Source of the DNA: a virus
Strand: one strand, 5' to 3'
IMG/VR virus record: IMGVR_UViG_3300044641_007991
Coordinates: 1 to 64,000 of that record
DNA length: 64,000 nucleotides
A program made the translations under genes and the position numbers. Of the stretch, positions 1,957 through 63,974 are shown piece by piece. The notes under the pieces were generated by a model, which was not told the origin of the DNA, did no database searches, and saw only the letters and a list, made by a program, of their open reading frames with translations. Numbering within the stretch: the stretch's first letter is position 1; each line of letters begins with the position of its first letter.

Positions 1957-3909
1957 ATGAGTGTTAGAGATATAGTACAAGCAGCAGCTGGCGCTAGTCC
2001 AGCAACTTATATTGAAGACGTGTTCAGCACCTATCTATATAGAGGTAACGGCTCTACACAGACGATCACAAACGGGATTGACCTGACAGGTAAGGGCGGG
2101 CTTACATGGGTTAAAAATAGAACAAATGCAACGGATAATGCTTTGTTCAATCTACCCAGCGGCGGCTACGCCACAATTGCGTATCAAGCATCAAACGCAA
2201 CGAACGCGAGCATAACCACATCACCAACAACCAGCATAACTACGACAGGTTCTGGGTTCACCCTAAACGGGTCAAGCACAGTCATAAATGCGTCCAGCAC
2301 CAACTACGCCTCATGGACATTCCGCAAGCAGCCGAAGTTCTTTGATGTGGTGACGTATACGGGGAACGGATCAGCTCAAAACATTCCGCATAACCTTGGC
2401 AGTGTTCCTGGCTGCATTATTGTCAAACGCACTGATAGCGCTGGTGATTGGTCTGTTTGGCATAAAGATGCCAGCACACTTTATTTAAACAGTACCGCAG
2501 CCCAAGGCTTTAACATTTTTGGTTCTGTTACATCTACAGCGTTTGGTGTGACATCAATCAGTTATTTAAACGCCTCTGGCGGCACATTTGTCGCCTACAT
2601 CTTCGCCCACAACGCTGGAGGTTTTGGTCTAACGGGTACGGACAATGTGATTTCGTGTGGGTCGTTTACGACTGATGGAAGTGGCAACGCGACTGTAACC
2701 CTTGGCTACGAACCGCAATGGGTTATGGTGAAGTCAAGTTCGGCAATAGATGGTTGGGTTATGCTTGACGTAGCTCGCGGTTGGTCAATGGCAACGAACG
2801 ATCAATATTTGTCGGCTAACATTGCATCTGCCGAATCGGTTCTAACTGGCGGCAATCCAACGGCGACAGGATTTGTTACACCAACTCTACAGGGTGGTAC
2901 CACATACATCTACATCGCCATCCGTCGCCCCAACAAGCCACCGACAACTGGGACGCAGGTTTACAGCATGATTGACCAAACCGGTGTTGACGCTCCATCT
3001 TTTCCGGTTTCAACGATTGGCTTTCAGCCAGATTTGGTCATGCAGTTGAATAAAGGGGTCATATCACCACATTATGGCCGCAGCTTCAAAACCAGACTGA
3101 CTGGATACGGGTTCGCAGACACACCAACAAGTTCGTTTGCTACAAGCCCGCACTTGGCTACGCATGTAACTTCCGCGGAGGGTAGCTACGCATGGAATAC
3201 GAACGGAACTGTGTTTGGGATGGGCAACACTTGGAATGCAAATGGGCCGTCTTTCTATGCAATAACAGCGCACTTCTTCAAACGCGCCCCTGGTGTGTTT
3301 GATGTGGTTTGCTATACGGCAACAGGTAGCACCGTAATGACAATCACTCACAACTTAACGGTTACGCCTGAGTTGATGATTATGAAAGCCCGTAGTTCTA
3401 GTGGCTGGAATTGGGCAGTTTATGCAGCGTCTCAAGGGGCAACAAAGAAGGGGTTGTTAAATTCAACCAATGCGTTCGGTCTTTCTACGCCTATGTGGAA
3501 TAATACCGCACCGACAAGCACAAGCTTTACCGTTGGTACAGGGGATGACACCAATCCGTCTGCGGGTGTTACGATGGTCGCCTACCTTTTTGCATCATGC
3601 CCAGGCGTTTCAAAAGTAGGCAGCTACACAGGCAACGGAAGCACTCAGACAATCAATTGCGGGTTTACTAGTGGGACGAGATTTGTTCTTATCAAGCGGG
3701 CTGATTCAACGGGCGATTGGTTTGTGTGGGACACCGTCAGGGGCATTGTTGCTGCTACCGACCCTCATCTAAGTTTAAATAACACCACTGCTGAAGTTAC
3801 AACCGATGATAGCATTGACCCAGATGCATTGGGATTTATCGTTAATCAAGTGGCGGCTACAAACATCAATGTTAATGCAGCAACTTACATATTTTTAGCC
3901 ATTGCTTAA
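1957..3909 (+). CDS. Phage tail/fibre protein with repeated beta-rich domains
   Basis: 650 residues, with a good start after AAGGATTATT. At least three copies of a repeated module can be seen, marked by phrases like YTGNGS.Q.I.H(N)L, GCIIVKRTDSAGDW and FVLIKRADSTGDW, separated by about 150-200 residues. This module is common in predicted tail fibres of marine and freshwater phages (DUF7483-like, from memory). Base composition is visibly richer in G and C than the flanking genes, with codons such as GGC, CGC and ACG that neighbours avoid. This suggests the fibre was acquired by exchange. The function is inferred to be host recognition. Confidence 0.75.
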   Translation: MSVRDIVQAAAGASPATYIEDVFSTYLYRGNGSTQTITNGIDLTGKGGLTWVKNRTNATDNALFNLPSGGYATIAYQASNATNASITTSPTTSITTTGSGFTLNGSSTVINASSTNYASWTFRKQPKFFDVVTYTGNGSAQNIPHNLGSVPGCIIVKRTDSAGDWSVWHKDASTLYLNSTAAQGFNIFGSVTSTAFGVTSISYLNASGGTFVAYIFAHNAGGFGLTGTDNVISCGSFTTDGSGNATVTLGYEPQWVMVKSSSAIDGWVMLDVARGWSMATNDQYLSANIASAESVLTGGNPTATGFVTPTLQGGTTYIYIAIRRPNKPPTTGTQVYSMIDQTGVDAPSFPVSTIGFQPDLVMQLNKGVISPHYGRSFKTRLTGYGFADTPTSSFATSPHLATHVTSAEGSYAWNTNGTVFGMGNTWNANGPSFYAITAHFFKRAPGVFDVVCYTATGSTVMTITHNLTVTPELMIMKARSSSGWNWAVYAASQGATKKGLLNSTNAFGLSTPMWNNTAPTSTSFTVGTGDDTNPSAGVTMVAYLFASCPGVSKVGSYTGNGSTQTINCGFTSGTRFVLIKRADSTGDWFVWDTVRGIVAATDPHLSLNNTTAEVTTDDSIDPDALGFIVNQVAATNINVNAATYIFLAIA

Positions 3910-9986: not shown

Positions 9987-10037
9987 TATAAATAAAGTAT
10001 AGGTCGCGAGTTCCGAGGCTCCACCTATTCTAAACAT
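9987..10037 (+). promoter_or_regulatory. HEG 5' module 2: late promoter and covarying hairpin
   Basis: TATAAATA (9987-9994), outer stem ATAGGT/ACCTAT (9999-10004/10023-10028), CGC, inner stem GAG/CTC (10008-10010/10119 would be out of range; the pair is 10008-10010 with 10019-10021), one C, then TCTAAACAT (10029-10037). Confidence 0.85.
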
Positions 10038-11232: not shown

Positions 11233-11679
11233 ATGAGAAAACACCTATTAAAGTTGTTTTTTATTATGTGTTTTTCAATTGATGTTAACGCCTCTAATCT
11301 AGTTTATGAATTCAATAATCCATCATTTTCGGGAAATGGTTGGTCAACTCAAGTAATAACTCTAGAACAAATAGAATCCGCTCGAAAGCAAAAAATAAAA
11401 GATGATGCAGCAGCTGGCATAGCCAAAGCTGCAGCTGATGCTAAAAATAGCAATTTATCTAAATTTTTAGTTAATGTTGAGTCCAGGATTTACGCTCAAT
11501 TATCCAAACAATTAGCTGATCAAATGTTTACTGATAGTGGAGCAACATCAGGTACAATGGATTTTCAGGGAACATCTATTAATTGGGTTAAAGGTGCAAC
11601 TGATGTATCGTTAACAATTACAGAATCTAATGGTAATACCACTGATATTATAGTTCCTATTGGTCAGTTTGGATTTTAA
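11233..11679 (+). CDS. csgF: CsgF-like curli assembly protein
   Basis: 148 residues. Signal peptide at 1-20 ending in VNA, then SNLVYEFNNPSFSGNGW, which matches the conserved mature N-terminus of CsgF. The rest has QLSKQLADQMF, then a beta-rich end with DVSLTITESNGNTTDIIVP, as in CsgF. In bacteria CsgF caps the outside of the CsgG pore and helps nucleate curlin. The ATG at 11233 is chosen because it begins the signal peptide; the frame stays open upstream. It is followed by csgG after one base. Late expression is expected. Confidence 0.85.
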   Translation: MRKHLLKLFFIMCFSIDVNASNLVYEFNNPSFSGNGWSTQVITLEQIESARKQKIKDDAAAGIAKAAADAKNSNLSKFLVNVESRIYAQLSKQLADQMFTDSGATSGTMDFQGTSINWVKGATDVSLTITESNGNTTDIIVPIGQFGF

Positions 11680-11680
11680 T

Positions 11681-12457
11681 ATGAAATATATGATTTTATC
11701 CATATTATTGCTTACAGGGTGTTCTCAAATTGCTTTGGATATTATGAGAGAAGATCCCGTTCCTATAACATCAAGAATCACATTAAGTAATAAATTACCG
11801 GAATTGGAAGGACCAGCAATACCAATTTCTATTTACGATTTTACTGATAAAACTGGGCAACGTAAACCATCAGACAAATTAGCTCAATTATCAACAGCTG
11901 TTCCACAGGGAGCAGAATCGTTTGTTATCAAAGCATTACAAGATTCAAAAAATTGGTTTAAGGTTGTTGAACGAGTTGGTTTAGATAATTTAGTTAAAGA
12001 GCGACAATTAATTCGCAATCAACGAGATGTTTACGAAGGAAAAGAATCTAAACCATTACCTCCATTATTAGTTAGTGGATTAATGGTAACAGGTAGCATT
12101 AGTGGATACGATTCTGATATTCGTACGGGTGGAATAGGGTTAAGGTTATTTAAACTTGGATTCACCCAAGAATATAGAGTTGATCAAATTACTATCTCGA
12201 TGAGATTAATTTCTGTTTCATCTGGGGAAGTATTAGTATCAGTGGCAACAACTAAAACGATTTATAGTTTTGCTAGTGATGCTGGTGTTATGATGTTTAT
12301 TGGAACTGGTAATGTAACTGCTCTAGAAGCAGAAGTTGGAAATAGCGTCAACGAACCTATTACTGAAGGTGTTAGAGTTGCTATTGAAGACAGTGTTTAT
12401 TCTATGATAATTGAAGGGGAAAAACGAGGTCTTTGGAAATTTAAAAAGGAAAAATAG
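11681..12457 (+). CDS. csgG: CsgG-like curli secretion channel lipoprotein
   Basis: 258 residues. Lipoprotein signal with lipobox LLTGC (Cys 14). Conserved CsgG phrases are in order: YDFTDKTGQRKP (52-63), STAVPQ (71-76), DNLVKERQLIRNQ (102-114), VTGSISGYDSDIRTGG (136-151), SSGEVLVSV, and NEPITEGVRVAIEDSV with RGLW near the end. CsgG forms the nonameric outer-membrane pore that exports curlin. The E. coli protein has 277 residues and ours lacks only part of the tail. It lies between csgF and a curlin-like gene, so the three essential secretion parts are together. Confidence 0.92.
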   Translation: MKYMILSILLLTGCSQIALDIMREDPVPITSRITLSNKLPELEGPAIPISIYDFTDKTGQRKPSDKLAQLSTAVPQGAESFVIKALQDSKNWFKVVERVGLDNLVKERQLIRNQRDVYEGKESKPLPPLLVSGLMVTGSISGYDSDIRTGGIGLRLFKLGFTQEYRVDQITISMRLISVSSGEVLVSVATTKTIYSFASDAGVMMFIGTGNVTALEAEVGNSVNEPITEGVRVAIEDSVYSMIIEGEKRGLWKFKKEK

Positions 12458-13048
12458 ATGAAAATCTTACAAACATATTTGATTATGTTTGTTATGCTCT
12501 TTGCTACTACTACATTTGCTAATGATATTTTTATTGAACAGGTTGGGAGTTTATCTGATATTACATTAACACAACAGGGTGTTGATAATCGTATTGGGAC
12601 AGCTCTTAATCCTTCATTTTTTGGTGGAAGTAGTGATGTGTCGACTATTGAACAAATTGGTTCTAGAAATGAATTAGATTTGATCGTAAATGGTGATAAT
12701 ACAACTGTTACATTAAGTACAACAGGTAATGATAATAAAGAAACAATTAATTGTGGAGTCAAAACTGCTGTGACATGTAACAATACTACAATCAATCATA
12801 CTATATCGGGTGATAATAATACTATTGACACTACAATTGGTGCTACAACTAATAGTAAAATGACTGTAACTGGTGATAGTAATGCTATTACTCATACAAG
12901 TACAAGTTCTGGTATTGTATCTGCTGATTTAACTTTAACTGGTAACAGTAATACAATTGATTTAACTCAAAGCGGAACTTTGGATAAGAGTATAAAAATT
13001 GAAAGTACTGGTTCTAACAATAATATTACTGTTAATCAATCCAATTAA
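12458..13048 (+). CDS. Curlin-like repeat protein (CsgA/CsgB type)
   Basis: 196 residues. Signal peptide 1-21 ends in FA. The mature protein is Asn/Thr/Gln-rich with curlin-style repeats: IEQVGSLSDITLTQQG, TIEQIGSRNELDL, then degenerate N-x-x-x-x-Q/T-x-G-x-x-N units to the end (IDLTQSGTLDKS). It has Cys residues in INCGVKTAVTCNN, unusual for curlin. It begins directly after csgG. It is the likely cargo of the CsgG channel. The amyloid nature is inferred. Cassette 3 starts at its stop codon. Confidence 0.8.
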   Translation: MKILQTYLIMFVMLFATTTFANDIFIEQVGSLSDITLTQQGVDNRIGTALNPSFFGGSSDVSTIEQIGSRNELDLIVNGDNTTVTLSTTGNDNKETINCGVKTAVTCNNTTINHTISGDNNTIDTTIGATTNSKMTVTGDSNAITHTSTSSGIVSADLTLTGNSNTIDLTQSGTLDKSIKIESTGSNNNITVNQSN

Positions 13049-13098
13049 TATAAATAGACGGTAGTCGCGGATCCCCCGATCCCACTACCTCTAAACAT
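13049..13098 (+). promoter_or_regulatory. HEG 5' module 3: late promoter and covarying hairpin
   Basis: TATAAATA (13049-13056), outer stem GGTAGT/ACTACC (13060-13065/13084-13089), CGC, inner stem GGATC/GATCC (13069-13073/13078-13082), one C, then TCTAAACAT (13090-13098). The best-paired copy. Confidence 0.88.
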
Positions 13099-13125
13099 TT
13101 TTACACTTAATCAAGAGGATTAACA

Positions 13126-13974
13126 ATGTCCAGCGCAAATATTTATATTATCACAGAACAACAGCGTTTAAATTTTAAACCAACATATCTTTATATCAAA
13201 CAACATTCAGTTACTGGATTAAAATATTTCGGAAAAACGATTAAATCTGATCCAATAAAATATAAAGGATCTGGTATTAGGTGGTCAAAACATATAAAAA
13301 AACACGGAACTAAATTTGTTACCACTTTATGGTATAAATTATATACAGATATAGATGAATTATTATCCGTTGCTATAACTCTATCTGAAATTTATGATAT
13401 CGTGGATTCTGATTTTTGGGCGAATATTGTGCCAGAAAATGGGTTAACTGGCGGAGATTCTGAAACTGTTAGAAGGCAACAAAAAGAGAAAGTTGCAGAA
13501 GGAACCCATAATTTTTTAGGTGGGGAGATTGGGGGGAGTTTTTCAAGAGAACGAGTTTTAAATGGAACCCATAATTTTTTAGGTCCAGAATCAAATAGAA
13601 AGCGAATAGCTGATGGAACACATCCATTTTTAAATTCCGATTTTCAAAGAAATGTTCAATTAAAATTATTATCTGAAGGGACTCATATATTCCTTAATCC
13701 AGAATTTCGAGAAAATCAATCTAATAGAGTTAAAGAAATGAATGCAACAAACGTCTCTAATGGTACGCACCCTTTTTTAGGACCGGAGTTGAATAAAAAA
13801 CGAATAGCTGATGGGACACATCCTTTACTCACTTTATCCAAACAAAGATCTAATAGAAAAATATATCTTGACATAAAAGAATTAGCTAAAACATTAAAGA
13901 TTAAATTACCACCTGGGCTAAATATGAAATCTGATGAATTTTTATTGAAATTTAAAGACAAATATTTGACTTAA
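13126..13974 (+). CDS. GIY-YIG-type homing endonuclease with GTH repeats (cassette 3)
   Basis: 282 residues. MSSANIYIITEQQ, then a GIY-YIG core FKPTYLYIKQHSVTGLKYFGKT (about 16-37) and YKGSG. From about 125 to 235 there are six repeats of GTHxFLxPE / RKRIADGTHPFL. The C-terminus NMKSDEFLLKFKDKY matches cassette 1, its closest relative here. It lies between the curlin-like gene and the FecR gene, whose ATG follows the endonuclease stop by one base with no ribosome site of its own. Confidence 0.82.
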   Translation: MSSANIYIITEQQRLNFKPTYLYIKQHSVTGLKYFGKTIKSDPIKYKGSGIRWSKHIKKHGTKFVTTLWYKLYTDIDELLSVAITLSEIYDIVDSDFWANIVPENGLTGGDSETVRRQQKEKVAEGTHNFLGGEIGGSFSRERVLNGTHNFLGPESNRKRIADGTHPFLNSDFQRNVQLKLLSEGTHIFLNPEFRENQSNRVKEMNATNVSNGTHPFLGPELNKKRIADGTHPLLTLSKQRSNRKIYLDIKELAKTLKIKLPPGLNMKSDEFLLKFKDKYLT

Positions 13975-13975
13975 T

Positions 13976-15034
13976 ATGCAATTTTGTGTATTTGTATTTT
14001 TAACATTTATATCAGTGAATGTTTTATCTGATATAGGGAAAATCGAATACCAAACAGGATTAGCTGAAATTAATAGGAATAATAGATCCTATGCAACTAA
14101 AGAGCAATTTCCAGTAGAATCTAAAGATTCTATTATTACAGCTAATTCTAAACTTAATATTAAATTTGAAGATAATACACGAGTTGCTGTGTCTGAACAA
14201 AGTAAACTTATTATTGATGATTTTATATACGACCCTAAAAAAACAGCAGGGAAATTAGCTTTAAAGTTTGCTTTAGGAACTGTTAGATATACTTCAGGAC
14301 AAATTGCTAAACATAATCCTCAAACAGTATCTATTAATACGCCGACTTCCGTAATTTCAATTCGGGGCACTGATTTTAGCGCCACTGTTGATGAATTAGG
14401 TAAAAGTACAATTATTTTATTACCCAGTTGTGATATTACTGGTTGTGTTACAGGTGCTATTGAAGTTTCTACTGATGCAGGGTTTGTTTTAATGAACCAA
14501 GCATTCCAGACAACAGTTGTATCAGATAAAAATTCTGCTCCAACAAAACCTGTTATCATATCAATCGATGCAGCTAATATAGATAATACATTAATTGTAT
14601 CTCCTCCTGTAAAATCTACAGATAATTCAACAAAAGTAGAACAAATAAAAACTGATTTAGATATTAATTTTCTTGATCAAGATTTTTTATCATACAAACA
14701 ATTAGATTTAAATGTTTTAGATTTAAGCAGCGAATTAGATAAAAATTATCTTGAGGTTGCTTTAATGGAAGATATGTTGAACGCTACTAATCAAGTCGGC
14801 AGCGATTTATTAGCTGTTGGGGTAATGTTGCCTGGATATAATGAGGCTAGTAATTTAAAATATTATATTAATTCTATTGAACAATTAGTATTAAACAAAT
14901 CATCAAAACACCAATTTGAATTAAAAATTGATAAAAATTCAGATGCAACATTAAATTTAAATCAAGAAGGTGTTCCATTATCTCAAAGAATTAATATGGG
15001 TGTTGCAACAAAAATTACTATTATTCAAAAATAA
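13976..15034 (+). CDS. Exported FecR-domain protein
   Basis: 352 residues. Signal peptide at about 1-18 (FCVFVFLTFISVNVLS). A FecR domain spans about 25-150 with the hallmark LGTVRYTSGQIAKHNPQ, SINTPTSVISIRGTDFSA. The C-terminal 150 residues are unassigned, ending in DATLNLNQEGVPLSQRIN. In bacteria FecR-domain proteins of this kind often sit beside CHASE2-cyclase genes, as here (15776). Location: periplasm. Its start directly follows the cassette 3 stop, so translation may depend on coupling, or the original start may have been lost when the cassette inserted. Confidence 0.85.
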   Translation: MQFCVFVFLTFISVNVLSDIGKIEYQTGLAEINRNNRSYATKEQFPVESKDSIITANSKLNIKFEDNTRVAVSEQSKLIIDDFIYDPKKTAGKLALKFALGTVRYTSGQIAKHNPQTVSINTPTSVISIRGTDFSATVDELGKSTIILLPSCDITGCVTGAIEVSTDAGFVLMNQAFQTTVVSDKNSAPTKPVIISIDAANIDNTLIVSPPVKSTDNSTKVEQIKTDLDINFLDQDFLSYKQLDLNVLDLSSELDKNYLEVALMEDMLNATNQVGSDLLAVGVMLPGYNEASNLKYYINSIEQLVLNKSSKHQFELKIDKNSDATLNLNQEGVPLSQRINMGVATKITIIQK

Positions 15035-15037
15035 ATA
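15030..15037 (+). promoter_or_regulatory. Late-promoter-like box
   Basis: AATAAATA across the FecR stop codon, 29 bases before the nuclease gene. A good ribosome site (CGTGAGGT) follows. Confidence 0.55.
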
Positions 15038-15065
15038 GTTTTTTTAAATATAACGTGAGGTAATC

Positions 15066-15779
15066 ATGAAAAAACTTGTTTTAGCACTATGTTTAGCGTT
15101 TTCTACTGCTGTATTTGCAGGAACTATTAACGAACAATGTCCGCAATTAACTGTAAACGGAACTCCACAATATGAATCTCAGCAAGGCGATCAAGAAATT
15201 TGTCATGCAAATTATGCAGTAATTCATAGATGCGGAGTAAAGGCTCCAGTTGCAGTATTTGAACATTTAACCAAAGAAGATATTACTGGTCCAGCTAAAC
15301 GAAAAGATAATTTTCACCCTGATTCTGATGTTTCCCCGCAATGTTCAGCTACTTTAGCCGATTATGCTACTGTTGGTAAAACTCATGATAGAGGACATTT
15401 ATCTCCAGCTGGAAACAATACTCAAAGTGCTGATATTATGAGCGAAAGTTTTGATTTGAGTAACATGGTAGCTCAGGTAGCAAACAATAATCGTGGGATC
15501 TGGAAACAATTAGAAACTAAAGAACGCGAAATGATTTCAACTGCAGGAACAGATTATTATATTATTTCTGGTGGCATTTTTGATCCTGGATACTCTGTAA
15601 CTGGTAATGGTTTGGGTATTCCAACTAGATTGTATAAAATAATTGTCGAGAAAAATAATAAATCCGTGCAAGCATATTTAATGCCAAATGCTGCGTTACC
15701 TGTGACAGATTTACCGAAATATCAAGTGTCGCTAGAAGAAGTTGAGCAAGCAACGCAAATGAAATTTAATTTAAAATGA
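15066..15779 (+). CDS. Secreted DNA/RNA non-specific endonuclease (NucA/Serratia type)
   Basis: 237 residues. Signal peptide 1-18 ending in VFA. The active-site phrase THDRGHLSPAGNN (about 109-121) holds the catalytic His and is followed by MSNMVAQ-type residues (LSNMVAQVANNNRGIWKQLE), the metal-binding part. Such nucleases degrade DNA and RNA in the periplasm or outside the cell. It overlaps the cyclase gene by 4 bases. Possible roles are removing free DNA during lysis or loosening an extracellular matrix; neither is shown. Confidence 0.92.
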   Translation: MKKLVLALCLAFSTAVFAGTINEQCPQLTVNGTPQYESQQGDQEICHANYAVIHRCGVKAPVAVFEHLTKEDITGPAKRKDNFHPDSDVSPQCSATLADYATVGKTHDRGHLSPAGNNTQSADIMSESFDLSNMVAQVANNNRGIWKQLETKEREMISTAGTDYYIISGGIFDPGYSVTGNGLGIPTRLYKIIVEKNNKSVQAYLMPNAALPVTDLPKYQVSLEEVEQATQMKFNLK

Positions 15780-17524
15780 GAAAAGTTTTATTATCTCCAT
15801 GGTTTTCGTTGGTAACTCTAGCATTAGTAATAGTGCTACGGGTTGCTGACCCTAGTTTCATAGAATCGATTCGACTTCGATATTTCGACACAATTATAAC
15901 AAGTCAGCAAGTTAAACCTTCTGAACAAATTCGTGTTGTTAATATTGATGATGAAACGATCAAACGCTATGGTCAATTCCCATTTCCGCGTGACAAATAT
16001 GCTGAGATAATCCAGACATTATTTGACCATCAAGCTGGATTAGTTGTTTTTAACGTATTCATGCCAGAATCTGATAGGTTTGGAAAGGACAATGAACTCA
16101 AAAAAATTATTGACACCTATCCAGTTATCTTACCTGAAGTTGGGGTTAATGATTCTACTGCTAGTGTTGCCCCTAAAATTGGCGTATCCGAAATCGGTGA
16201 ATCTGCCAGACCTTGGGCGCCACAGTACAAGGGAATACAATCTAACATCCCAGAATATCAGGGTGCAGCAGGCATTGGAGTCGTTAATACCCTCCCAGAA
16301 ATTGATGGAGTCACCAGAAGAATACCCATGGTTGTATCAGCCACAGATACTCTCTACCCGTCCATCTCGATGGAAACGCTTAGAGTTGCAGCTGGAGACC
16401 CTAGCTTTCAAATTAAGTCTAATGAATCGGGGATCGAAGCAGTTAGAATCCCTCAGTTTGGAAAAATTGATACTGATGAATTTGGAAGAATCTGGATCGA
16501 TTGGTCGAACATACCGATGGAATATTCCTTCAATAGATTACCCGATAGTTTTGATGGTGGAATTGTTATTGTCGGGCTTACTGGACGAGGACTCAATAAT
16601 CCTGTCGCAACAGCTAGAGGGAACGTCTATCCGCATCAACTTCAATCTACGGTATTAGATACAATTTTAAAAGGTACTAATATTTCTAGACCAGATTGGG
16701 CAACAGTTGTTGAATTATTATCAACATTATTATTGAGTATTGTTTCTATATTATTAGTGCGGTGGAAATATGGATTTATTCCTGTTATTACAGCTATTAC
16801 CTCTATACATTTTGGTGTTAGTTATATTTTTAACAATTATCATTACCTTTTGGACGCTACGATTCCTGTTCTGGGCATTTTTCTGGTGTATGCTCATAGT
16901 TTCACTGTTAAATTTATTACTGAACTAAACGCTAAATTGCAAATTAAACGACAATTTGGAACTTATTTAAGTCCTGCATTGGTAGAAAAGTTGCAAAAAA
17001 ATCCTGAGTTGTTAACTCTTGGTGGAGAATCTAGAGAATTGACAATTTATTTTTCTGATATTAGGTCATTTACAACGCTGTCTGAGCATTATAAAACTGA
17101 TCCCATGGGGTTAACCAATTTAATAACCCGATATATGGATAAAATGTTACCTATTATAATGAAAAATGAAGGTACTGTTGGAAAACTTATTGGTGATGCT
17201 ATTATGGCATGGTGGGGTGCTCCATTAGATGTAGAAAATCACGCATCAATGGCTATTAAAACTGCAAAAGAAATGGAAATAGCATTAGCAGAATTAAATG
17301 AAGAATTAATATCTGAAGGTAAACCTCCATTACATGTTGGTGCTGGTATTAGTACTGGAACTGTATTTGTTGGTAATATGGGATCTTCTGAAAGATTTAG
17401 TTATGATATATTAGGGGATGAGGTTAATCTTGCAGCAAGATTAGAAGGACAAACTAAAGGATACGGAGTATCTTTAATATTGAGTGAAAACGCATTAAAT
17501 AGATTAAAGTTTGAAAATGTATAA
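15776..17524 (+). CDS. CHASE2-domain adenylate/guanylate cyclase, N-terminal piece of a split gene
   Basis: 582 residues. A membrane helix (about 8-22), an extracytoplasmic CHASE2 sensor (about 25-300), three membrane helices (about 305-375) and a class III cyclase domain (about 395-582). Metal-binding Asp residues lie in FSDIRSFT and IGDAIMAWWG; the transition-state Asn and Arg are in DEVNLAARLEGQ. The piece ends at LNRLKFENV because cassette 4 interrupts it. The missing last strands are encoded at 18504-18770. All catalytic residues are in this piece, so activity may survive, alone or with the C-piece. It probably makes cAMP or cGMP in response to an envelope signal. Confidence 0.9.
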   Translation: MRKVLLSPWFSLVTLALVIVLRVADPSFIESIRLRYFDTIITSQQVKPSEQIRVVNIDDETIKRYGQFPFPRDKYAEIIQTLFDHQAGLVVFNVFMPESDRFGKDNELKKIIDTYPVILPEVGVNDSTASVAPKIGVSEIGESARPWAPQYKGIQSNIPEYQGAAGIGVVNTLPEIDGVTRRIPMVVSATDTLYPSISMETLRVAAGDPSFQIKSNESGIEAVRIPQFGKIDTDEFGRIWIDWSNIPMEYSFNRLPDSFDGGIVIVGLTGRGLNNPVATARGNVYPHQLQSTVLDTILKGTNISRPDWATVVELLSTLLLSIVSILLVRWKYGFIPVITAITSIHFGVSYIFNNYHYLLDATIPVLGIFLVYAHSFTVKFITELNAKLQIKRQFGTYLSPALVEKLQKNPELLTLGGESRELTIYFSDIRSFTTLSEHYKTDPMGLTNLITRYMDKMLPIIMKNEGTVGKLIGDAIMAWWGAPLDVENHASMAIKTAKEMEIALAELNEELISEGKPPLHVGAGISTGTVFVGNMGSSERFSYDILGDEVNLAARLEGQTKGYGVSLILSENALNRLKFENV

Positions 17525-21284: not shown

Positions 21285-21730
21285 TGTAAGAAAACGGTTT
21301 ATTCTGTTTCGAGGAAAACCGCAAAAACCCAACTATAATTTTAAGCTGCTAGAGCAGTAGAATTATAGAAAGCGTCGTTTTTAGCTTCGCCATTTACTTA
21401 TTTTATGCTGATTACGTCAGTCATCTCTCGATTCTCCAGTGTTCTTTGATCTCAACGTCGAATCTGTTCACCCCCATCAGAAACACACTTAAACTGGTCC
21501 GGCAGAATTTTTTCATTCCAGTTCGTTTATGTGACCGTCGTCACTACTTAGCTGCGGCAAAAGTATGTTTCTGGTGGAGGTGGGGGAATAATGCTATCCC
21601 CGTCCGCCAAAACTATTATAACACCTTCAACGAATACTTTAAAATCACACTGCATAAGGACATAACGGACTCAAACCGAGTTCTTTGATACTATCTTACC
21701 TTATCGAACCTGAACACCTAGTGTGATTTT
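21285..21730 (-). ncRNA. ssrA: Circularly permuted (two-piece) tmRNA
   Basis: On the minus strand the acceptor piece comes first and ends CACCTCCACCA (21582-21572); about 96 bases later the coding piece begins GGGGGTGAACAGATTCGACG (21475 onward), with the near-invariant ATTCGACG. GGGGGTG pairs with CACCTCC to make the acceptor stem (one G-U), and the intervening bases extend this helix (GAAACA with TGTTTC). A tag frame ends in ALAA and stop. A perfect 11-bp stem (21730-21720/21651-21641) closes the outer acceptor domain. The two-piece order is known from alphaproteobacteria, cyanobacteria and some betaproteobacteria. The 5' limit of the acceptor piece and the 3' limit of the coding piece are approximate. 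Confidence 0.88.
21341..21391 (-). other. tmRNA tag-peptide frame
   Basis: Reading from GGC at 21391 gives GEAKNDAFYNSTALAA then TAA; resuming at GCT would give AKNDAFYNSTALAA. The -4 base before GGC is A, as needed in E. coli tmRNA, which favours the longer tag. The ALAA end is the classic ClpXP/ClpAP degradation signal. The tag is nested inside a stem (CTATAATT/AATTATAG). Confidence 0.85.
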
Positions 21731-40779: not shown

Positions 40780-40892
40780 AATATAATTTATTTAGAATTT
40801 ATTAGCGGGAACCGAAACTCCCGCGCAATTAACAAAAGCTCTAGAATTACCTAGACAATTCTAGATTACCGTTTTCAACAACAGACAATACA

Positions 40893-40929
40893 ATTATAAC
40901 GTATTTTGTCTGGAAGGTCAAGCACTTCT
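40893..40929 (-). promoter_or_regulatory. Sigma70-type early promoter
   Basis: -35 TTGACC (40921-40916), 17 bp, -10 TATAAT (40898-40893); drives the gene at 40779. A GCGGGA/TCCCGC hairpin lies in the leader. Confidence 0.9.
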
Positions 40930-45776: not shown

Positions 45777-45805
45777 TTTAACCTCAACAATTTATAATAA
45801 AATTA

Positions 45806-45879
45806 GAATAATGCTGCCTGGGATTCGAACCCATATTTTCGTTAGTTTTCCGCACGATTTTCGCGTGGCAACATTATTC
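45806..45879 (-). tRNA. tRNA-like element lacking a normal D/anticodon region
   Basis: The minus strand has a canonical T-arm, GGGTTCGAATCCC, and a long outer stem, GAATAATGTTGCC (45879-45867) with GGCAGCATTATTC (45818-45806), 13 bp with one G-U. Only about 48 bases lie between the strands, too few for a usual D-arm plus anticodon arm, and I find no 5-bp anticodon stem with a 7-base loop. It is transcribed from the promoter at 45893. A decayed tRNA or a tRNA mimic; no anticodon is assigned. Confidence 0.5.
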
Positions 45880-45892
45880 CAAATACACAGTT

Positions 45893-45929
45893 ATTGTACT
45901 ATACTTAGGTAAAAAAGTCAAGCACTTTT
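45893..45929 (-). promoter_or_regulatory. Sigma70-type early promoter
   Basis: -35 TTGACT (45921-45916), 17 bp, -10 TACAAT (45898-45893); drives the tRNA-like element and the coiled-coil gene. Confidence 0.92.
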
Positions 45930-53855: not shown

Positions 53856-53904
53856 AATATTCTCTCCAGAGTAGAAGGTCAGGACAAACCCAACCTATGC
53901 ACCT

Positions 53905-57159: not shown

Positions 57160-57189
57160 AGATCTCTCCTCAGTTCAAAGTATAGATTC

Positions 57190-61948: not shown

Positions 61949-61965
61949 TTTTCTCTCCAAGAAGG

Positions 61966-62753: not shown

Positions 62754-62815
62754 TGCTCTCTCCAGTAATCTTCGATAAGGGTTGGTCAGGGAACCGTTCC
62801 CCAACCTATAGATCA

Positions 62816-62853
62816 ATTTTACTCTAGACCGAGACTAATGTCAAGCACTTTTT
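62816..62853 (-). promoter_or_regulatory. Sigma70-type early promoter with leader hairpin
   Basis: -35 TTGACA (62844-62839), 17 bp, -10 TAAAAT (62821-62816), then CTATAGGTTGG pairing with CCAACC about 15 bases on. Drives 62753 onward. Confidence 0.9.
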
Positions 62854-62869: not shown

Positions 62870-63440
62870 TTTTACTCGTGCTAGCAGCGCGTTTTGGTAG
62901 GAGCGGGGGAATGGTATTAAAAAACGATTATCGAGGCGCTCGCAAGAGCTAGAGCAGGAAAATAGACCTGCAGGGTACAAACAGCAGGTCAGATGCCTTA
63001 GGAGAGCATAAACTAGAAGGACTCAACCTAAATGAGGAGAGAGTTCATTTAGGGAGTCCCGTATCAACCCTAGAGCCGGAGAGAGGAGGCTCTAGAGTCA
63101 GAATAGGGAGCTCAACGCGATTCGGCTGGAGAGTAACCTAATCGCGGAGCTAAAACGGTGCTAGCAAGAGGGAGAGAGCTCTAAGCGCCAGCACCGGAAT
63201 AAGGTTTGGGCTTATTGTAAAGAATAAGCCCGATAATAACCATTTATCGTAAAGAAAATAAATGGTCTCAGTATGGCGGCCATATTGCAGTATGCATACT
63301 GGAGTAGAATTAGGTTGCTCAACTGAATATACCAATTAAAAACGCATGAAATTCGCAGTAACTTGTATTTTATAGGTTTGGTATATTCAGGAGCATACAG
63401 TCTATTAAGGTTGGGAGAGAGTCAACCTTAACGAGTGTTC
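62870..63440. ncRNA. Hairpin array, probable structured RNA
   Basis: No protein gene. At least nine hairpins in a row. Five share a loop GGAGAGAG (plus strand) or CTCTCTCC (minus): stems CCTAAATG (63027-63053), CTAGAGCC (63070-63095), CGCGATT (63116-63146), CGGTGCT (63156-63196) and TTAAGGTTG (63405-63431). Two more, GGGCTTAT (63208-63231) and CCATTTAT (63240-63265), share the loop YGTAAAGA. GACCTGC/GCAGGTC lies at 62965-62990 and a 13-bp pair CTGAATATACCAA/TTGGTATATTCAG at 63323-63390. Flanking genes are minus-strand, which favours that strand, but no promoter is clear on either. Confidence 0.7.
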
Positions 63441-63442
63441 AA

Positions 63443-63859
63443 TTAAACCCAATCTATAGATCGCTTTACAGATAATCTATATTCACAATCCGGTCCTTCT
63501 TGGTATTGTTCAATATCAGAATAATCCTCACCCATACGGATATATTCAACATTTAAGTTTAATCTTAAAGCGCAGTGAATCATGTGATTAAAGAAATCAG
63601 CACCAGATGTAATTTTTAACCAATAATCACCCCATCTAATGCTTTCACCGATAAATAAGAATTCATAACCATATTCTTCAGAGGTAAAAAATACATCTTT
63701 ATTGAGAGTGATGTTATTTGATTTACATTCTAGAGCTAAGATTTCATTTTGAATATCCTGAGATAATGAATCAAAGGTATTGGAATATAATTCACCAAAC
63801 TCAAGCATTAAATCCTGATCACCATAAATTCTAATTGCAACATCTGAACGATAACTCAT
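63443..63859 (-). CDS. Conserved phage protein, MSYRSDV family
   Basis: 138 residues from MSYRSDVAIRIYGDQDLMLE (GAGAT upstream), a widespread T4-like family with a later phrase ESIRWGDYW. Acidic. Its last codons run into a degenerate CTATAGATTGGG leader-like motif. Confidence 0.82.
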   Translation of the reverse strand: MSYRSDVAIRIYGDQDLMLEFGELYSNTFDSLSQDIQNEILALECKSNNITLNKDVFFTSEEYGYEFLFIGESIRWGDYWLKITSGADFFNHMIHCALRLNLNVEYIRMGEDYSDIEQYQEGPDCEYRLSVKRSIDWV

Positions 63860-63860
63860 A

Positions 63861-63974
63861 TTAACGATCTCTAAGTAATTTAGCAAGCATGTGCATTGCT
63901 ACAATTGTTGCTGCAATAATCATAATACTAAAACAGAATCCATATACTGTTAAAATTAAATCATTAGTACACAT
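63861..63974 (-). CDS. Small membrane protein
   Basis: 37 residues, MCTNDLILTVYGFCFSIMII then AATIVAMHMLAKLLRDR. One membrane helix (about 7-30). The stop lies one base before the next ATG region. Confidence 0.62.
   Translation of the reverse strand: MCTNDLILTVYGFCFSIMIIAATIVAMHMLAKLLRDR

Follow-up and report, generated by a model that had tools for sequence, protein, structure and literature searches.

The window analysed here, a stretch of 64,000 nucleotides, is part of a 74,280-bp IMG/VR virus record (IMGVR_UViG_3300044641_007991). Towards its right end a non-coding array of hairpins lies between two minus-strand early genes (Table 1). Its 3' boundary (62873) directly precedes the early promoter of the next gene, and minus-strand read-through of the operon that encloses its upstream neighbor would cover the array. 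The first gene of this operon encodes an AAA ATPase. In addition the record encodes GroEL, NAD-salvage genes and RNA ligases. A curli cassette (CsgG, FecR and a CHASE2-adenylate cyclase; window 11660-17524, plus strand) is shared with the Methylophilales phage Melnitz, and a relative of the cyclase is also found in the Pelagibacter phage HTVC008M. The window contains a permuted tmRNA, and the relative G030 has a permuted tmRNA of betaproteobacterial type.

The early promoter of these phages is the AAAGTGCTTGAC promoter. The minus-strand genes use a strong version, AAAAGTGCTTGACT-N17-TATAAT, of which a motif scan found 34 copies, always in minus orientation. A single early-type promoter with plus orientation (L002 ~12965, record position 73964, score 17.6) lies close to the record's right end. 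TATAAATA precedes several late genes of the plus strand. At 9987, 13049, 17520 and 32315 (plus strand) this late promoter is followed by a leader hairpin and then by TCTAAAC. The leader hairpins keep a TCGCG element despite their varying stems, which may be a shared leader signal.

Other candidate RNAs were noticed as well. Two early promoters, at ~45800-45926 and 40780-40926 (both minus), seem to drive non-coding RNAs. The former includes a tRNA-like part (GTTGCC...GGGTTCGAATCCCAGGCAGC) that was not called by ARAGORN, the latter contains GGGAGTTTCGGTTCCC. In two other phages, structured RNAs (L281 1794-2055, plus; L291 11418-11829, minus) share GGGAGTCATGACCC with a self-complementary TCATGA loop, and a further structured RNA near tRNAs (L289 2569-2931, minus) has a similar placement. 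None of these three matched an Rfam family. Non-coding RNAs close to tRNA arrays in G030 and G004 were also inspected and are unrelated to the hairpin array.

Table 1. Location of the array, its parts and related features. Positions refer to the window unless an L number is given; unpaired and pair probabilities are predicted.
Feature	Position	Strand	Sequence or remark
Non-coding RNA element (array)	62873-63438	-	~566 nt; begins 5 nt past the stop codon of the upstream early gene
Hairpin 1 (5'-most on minus strand)	63404-63432	-	GTTAAGGTTG-ACTCTCTCC-CAACCTTAAT; loop unpaired 1.0
Hairpin 2	63156-63196	-	Loop CTCTCTCC; unpaired 0.97; stem-closing G-U pair on minus strand only
Hairpin 3	63109-63151	-	Loop ACTCTCC; 2-nt UU bulge in lower stem; unpaired 1.0
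Hairpin 4	63065-63100	-	Loop TCCTCTCTCC; 13-pair stem, 3 G-U on minus; unpaired 1.0
Hairpin 5	63019-63059	-	Loop ACTCTCTCC; 9+6 bp, UU bulge; unpaired 1.0
Sixth CTCTCC copy	63001-63006	-	Weak; partial exposure (0.68)
Two hairpins with common loop TCTTTAC	63208-63268	-	Plus strand GTAAAGA at 63217, 63249
Long hairpin	63317-63395	-	13-bp perfect stem and 4-5 bp lower stem with UU bulge; ~42-nt loop
Terminal helix closing the element	62874-62879 / 63431-63436	-	ACTCGT/ACGAGT; pair probability 0.61-0.95 minus, 0.50-0.73 plus
Possible weak terminator	62957-62990	-	GACCTGC..GCAGGTC then TATTTTCC; assigned by eye
Upstream early gene (147 aa)	63443-63886	-	Operon starts at early promoter 65340, outside the window
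Early promoter of next gene	62816-62849	-	AGTGCTTGACA-N17-TAAAAT; adjoins array downstream
Ribosome site of next gene	62756-62763	-	GGAGAGAG; exact 8-nt complement of loops
Ribosome site	61951-61958	-	GGAGAGAA; 7-nt complement
Ribosome site	57162-57169	-	GGAGAGAT
Ribosome site	53860-53867	-	GGAGAGAA
Permuted tmRNA	21293-21683	-	
Equivalent array in G050	L283 3201-3590	+	Between early gene and promoter at 3590
Equivalent array in G051	L286 2546-3028	-	Between AAA ATPase gene and promoter L286 2507-2542

A hairpin array with one repeated loop

From the letters alone, hairpins with unrelated stems had been described that expose one and the same loop, GGAGAGAG/CTCTCTCC. This arrangement was confirmed, and it is far beyond chance. 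GGAGAG occurs six times in the element (63001, 63036, 63078, 63128, 63171 and 63414), five of these copies in such loops, while dinucleotide shuffles of the element contain a mean of 0.53 copies and never reached six (0/1000). The longer word GGAGAGAG is found four times inside the element, compared to a chance expectation of 0.38 for all 64 kb; no shuffle gave 5. Likewise, the element has six perfect hairpins with stems of 7 bp or more, whereas the shuffles have 0.2 on average and never more than 2. Across ~320 other phage loci scanned, three hairpins with a common 6-mer loop did not recur. The second pair of loops that had been pointed out, YGTAAAGA, is also present but less striking, as two copies appear in 9 of 1000 shuffles; GUAAAGA, the complement of these UCUUUAC loops, is found at no early ribosome site.

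Both strands of the element fold with a z-score of about -9. TCAAC (plus strand) occurs five times between 62873 and 63438, a number reached by none of 1000 shuffles. In three helices it corresponds to the UU bulge of the minus strand (CTCAAC opposite GGAG).

Equivalent arrays in two relatives and the probable strand of the RNA

Two relatives, G050 (21,822 bp) and G051 (37,389 bp), were picked by an early-promoter scan alone and not by the loop; both contigs carry many early promoters of this type. Each contains an equivalent array, so that three members are known, all of them fragmentary metagenome contigs. In all three phages the array fills the gap from the stop codon of an early gene to the next early promoter, and in both relatives the GGAGAGAG clusters are antisense to the early genes. 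The AAA ATPase of the G051 array operon is 52% identical to that of the operon described here. We also considered the possibility that relatives keep the stems and lose the loop, and observed the opposite: the loops are conserved, whereas the stems differ and the overall architecture is not preserved.

Searches beyond these phages returned no further member. When the three arrays were compared one by one with 50,697 phage records by blastn, no homologue was obtained. Scans of the whole IMG/VR for three clustered GGAGAG loops, or for GGAGAG together with two GTAAAGA loops, recovered mostly repeats and low-complexity DNA and no such array. The type of early leader used by this phage was found neither in IMG/VR nor in GTDB, and when neighboring proteins were used as bait no array was among the loci returned. 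No arrays were found in other relatives, many of which are incomplete. Rfam contained no family at the gathering threshold, the best permissive matches being plant miRNA models with E-values of 0.28 and above.

For the question of which strand is the RNA, this phage on its own gives mixed signals. Its plus strand folds slightly better (-201.9 vs. -182.9 to -184.8) and leaves A-rich unpaired bases, as is typical of structured RNA, while the number of G-U pairs in its array gives no clear indication of the strand. The relatives are clearer. In G050 the sense strand of the early genes folds with -132 kcal/mol (z -9.6) in comparison to -96 (z -3.9) for the complement, in G051 with -145 kcal/mol (z -10.2) in comparison to -134 (z -6.0). 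The CUCUC loops on this strand are at least 0.92 unpaired in both relatives with a single exception of 0.84, and the five main loops on the minus strand of this phage are at least 0.97 unpaired. Loop stems contain 22 G-U pairs on the sense and 9 on the antisense strand. The G051 array is closed on the sense strand by an intrinsic terminator (GACCGGA-AUAAACA-UCCGGUC-UUUUUUU), the only strong one among the three arrays. A dedicated promoter of the array was found on neither strand, and neither an early nor a late promoter is located shortly upstream of it on the plus strand. Because of the sense-strand folding in the relatives and the terminator in G051, we assign the putative RNA to the minus strand, with 4-6 exposed CUCUCUCC loops. 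The composition of the unpaired bases would favor the plus strand, a view overturned by the same folding comparison, and as far as sequence can tell the comparison of three phages outweighs the mixed signals of this phage alone. Linkers on the minus strand are G-poor in all three phages, which perhaps keeps the CUCUCUCC loops free.

Early ribosome sites complementary to the loops

The sequence-only reading had also named several GGAGAGA ribosome sites and noted that the loops on the minus strand are complementary to them. The sites are real, and many further ones are located to the right of the window. GGAGAG is present at 14 of 21 early promoters of the right end but at none of 11 elsewhere (Fisher p = 4e-4), where the sites are not to be taken as fully independent, since the leader modules may have a common ancestry; the number of genes in this tally is one below the number of promoters because two tandem promoters share one site. 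All eight copies of GGAGAGAG in the 74-kb record belong either to the array (four loops, plus strand) or to early ribosome sites (minus strand: 68708, 67116, 65264 and 62763). The site at 65264 is that of the AAA ATPase gene, and the transcription units on either side of the array (65264, 62763) thus both possess the full 8-nt complement of the loops. At most of the phage's own sites the pairing comprises 7 nt because position 8 is A and not G. Considering GGAGAG in the whole record, 17 of 19 minus-strand copies precede an ATG, and 6 of 9 plus-strand copies are found in the array.

A similar distribution is observed in the relatives. GAGAGA-type sites make up 6 of 8 early ribosome sites in G050 and 17 of 20 in G051, and none in G030, G011 and G052. 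On the sense strand GAGAGAG is located upstream of an ATG in 4/4, 4/4 and 17/17 cases in the three records (25/25 over 133 kb), and CTCTCTC inside the arrays in 4/4, 4/4 and 5/6 cases (13/14 in total). In a survey of ribosome sites across 411 loci, those of these three phages top the matches listed. Among these matches, only their loci combine at least three GAGAGA sites with a usage above 40%, and no other locus with at least three such sites exceeds 20%. The complementarity that had been proposed is therefore strengthened by two more phages with an array and matching early sites.

We further compared predicted pairing energies. The loop 10-mer pairs with the phage's own right-end early sites with a median of -12.3 kcal/mol, the 3' end of the 16S rRNA with the same sites with -6.4. 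At other early-promoter sites the values are -4.2 kcal/mol for the loop and -7.4 for the 16S rRNA. A reversed-loop control pairs equally well with the G051 sites, so neither G050 nor G051 shows a specific register, which is loose because loops and sites are both GA/CT repeats. The loops thus have the features of anti-Shine-Dalgarno sequences, being single-stranded by prediction, complementary to ribosome sites and present in both relatives.

Proposed function of the array RNA and alternatives

We favor, with some reserve, the reading that the array is a 3'-UTR- or operon-derived antisense RNA repressing early translation. It would be a non-coding RNA co-transcribed from the minus strand with the genes of an early operon, whose 3' part it would form, and would fold into 4-6 hairpins. 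Their loops would present an identical stretch of 7-8 nt, CUCUCUCC, in unpaired form. In the cell the loops would pair with the GAGAGA-type ribosome sites that the majority of the early genes in this end region have in common, in competition with the 16S rRNA. As the RNA accumulates, it would lower early translation, rather than protect or activate it, including that of the first gene of its own operon. Late genes and the remaining genes with early promoters have different ribosome sites and would therefore not be affected.

In function, the c4 antisense RNA of phages P1 and P7 comes closest; its loop sequence base-pairs in the region of a ribosome site and thereby prevents translation (PMC12197685). 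Both RNAs would be phage-encoded with complementary loops directed against a ribosome site, but c4 has one target (ant) and serves immunity, whereas 4-6 identical loops would here face at least a dozen early genes. In bacterial sRNAs with C-rich loops, such as S. aureus RNAIII and RsaE, pyrimidine loops pair with the Shine-Dalgarno sequences of several mRNAs. These RNAs are host-encoded and have few loops directed against generic sites, in contrast to the array, which is viral and combines the loop with a special GAGAGA early site. sRNAs derived from 3'-UTRs can feed back on their own operon; the array similarly has a 3'-terminal position in an operon and is complementary to the ribosome site of the first gene there, but differs in its multi-hairpin form and in the many additional trans targets proposed. 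In the open-access literature, where absence is no proof, we did not come across any phage RNA described as carrying several copies of a loop directed against ribosome sites.

Pairing of the same minus-strand RNA could instead protect or store early mRNAs, e.g. against a RegB-like nuclease, or gather several of them, and the evidence from complementarity and strand is identical for this possibility and for repression. The RegB nuclease of T4 reads GGAG in early ribosome sites, cuts it when unpaired and shuts off early translation (PMC3014915), and pairing would hide this GGAG. RegB resembles the proposed system in reaching a class of early mRNAs via a shared ribosome-site sequence, except that the recogniser is a nuclease and would here be an RNA. 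Protection is nevertheless unlikely: pairing across a ribosome site normally blocks initiation, the sites of G050 and G051 are mostly without GGAG, and a search of the 74-kb record and five relatives gave no RegB homologue above the cut-off, a weak argument as the record is partial. It is similarly improbable, to a slightly greater degree, that the minus-strand loops bind a phage or host protein preferring pyrimidine-rich loops, with the likeness to ribosome sites arising incidentally from the GA/CT repeats. Protein-sponge RNAs, too, are marked by one loop repeated on differing stems, and both UCUUUAC loops are likewise pyrimidine-rich, but the restriction of GAGAGAG to positions before start codons and of CTCTCTC almost entirely to the array would be left unexplained, as would the outstanding usage of GAGAGA sites by these phages among the matches listed.

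Very unlikely is a decoy RNA from the plus strand, whose GGAGAGAG loops would mimic early ribosome sites and in this way sequester a factor that recognizes them. The tmRNA-like abundance of A among the unpaired bases of this phage's plus strand, a GCAA tetraloop and the stable fold would fit; however, the corresponding strand of the relatives folds much worse, no promoter is located shortly upstream on the plus strand while the minus strand lies in early-operon read-through, and the G051 terminator is on the opposite strand. We give even less credit to an architectural, self-assembling "ornate" RNA comparable to ROOL and GOLLD, which are large structured phage RNAs (PMC12286853). A length of ~570 nt, the terminal helix, many hairpins and the repeated UU-bulge motif would agree with it, and the repeated loops would then be tertiary contacts. 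These loops are not self-complementary, though, their complement is found in early ribosome sites, they alone are conserved among the three phages, and the array has no Rfam match. Finally, the trapping of host CsrA by GGA loops of the plus strand, which the sequence-only reading had offered as one option, hardly merits belief: the array shares with CsrB/RsmZ RNAs a series of hairpins with one loop motif, several containing GGA, but the relatives point to the other strand, the conserved loop spans GGAGAGAG and thus extends well past GGA, GGA is not enriched in total (17 vs. 13 in shuffles, with 17 reached by 75/1000), no conserved A stands two bases before GGA so that the ANGGA context is absent, and neither the phage record nor five relatives yielded a CsrA homologue (weak evidence, the record being partial).

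Repression by the minus-strand RNA is therefore the reading we carry forward. That the loops are the exact complement of a shared early ribosome-binding sequence suggests a virus-wide RNA switch of early protein synthesis. It is an evenly balanced matter whether the virus in this way tags one temporal class of genes with a ribosome-site word, GAGAGA, which a multi-loop RNA would read as an RNA-only switch of early translation. Early shut-off in T4 uses a nuclease and protein repressors. If true, the array would be a protein-free solution to the same task, with a ribosome-site word confined to early genes, and would account for the poor appearance of early ribosome sites in these phages, e.g. 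GAGAGAGA. The regulon would be readable from the sequence, and the predictions are clear.
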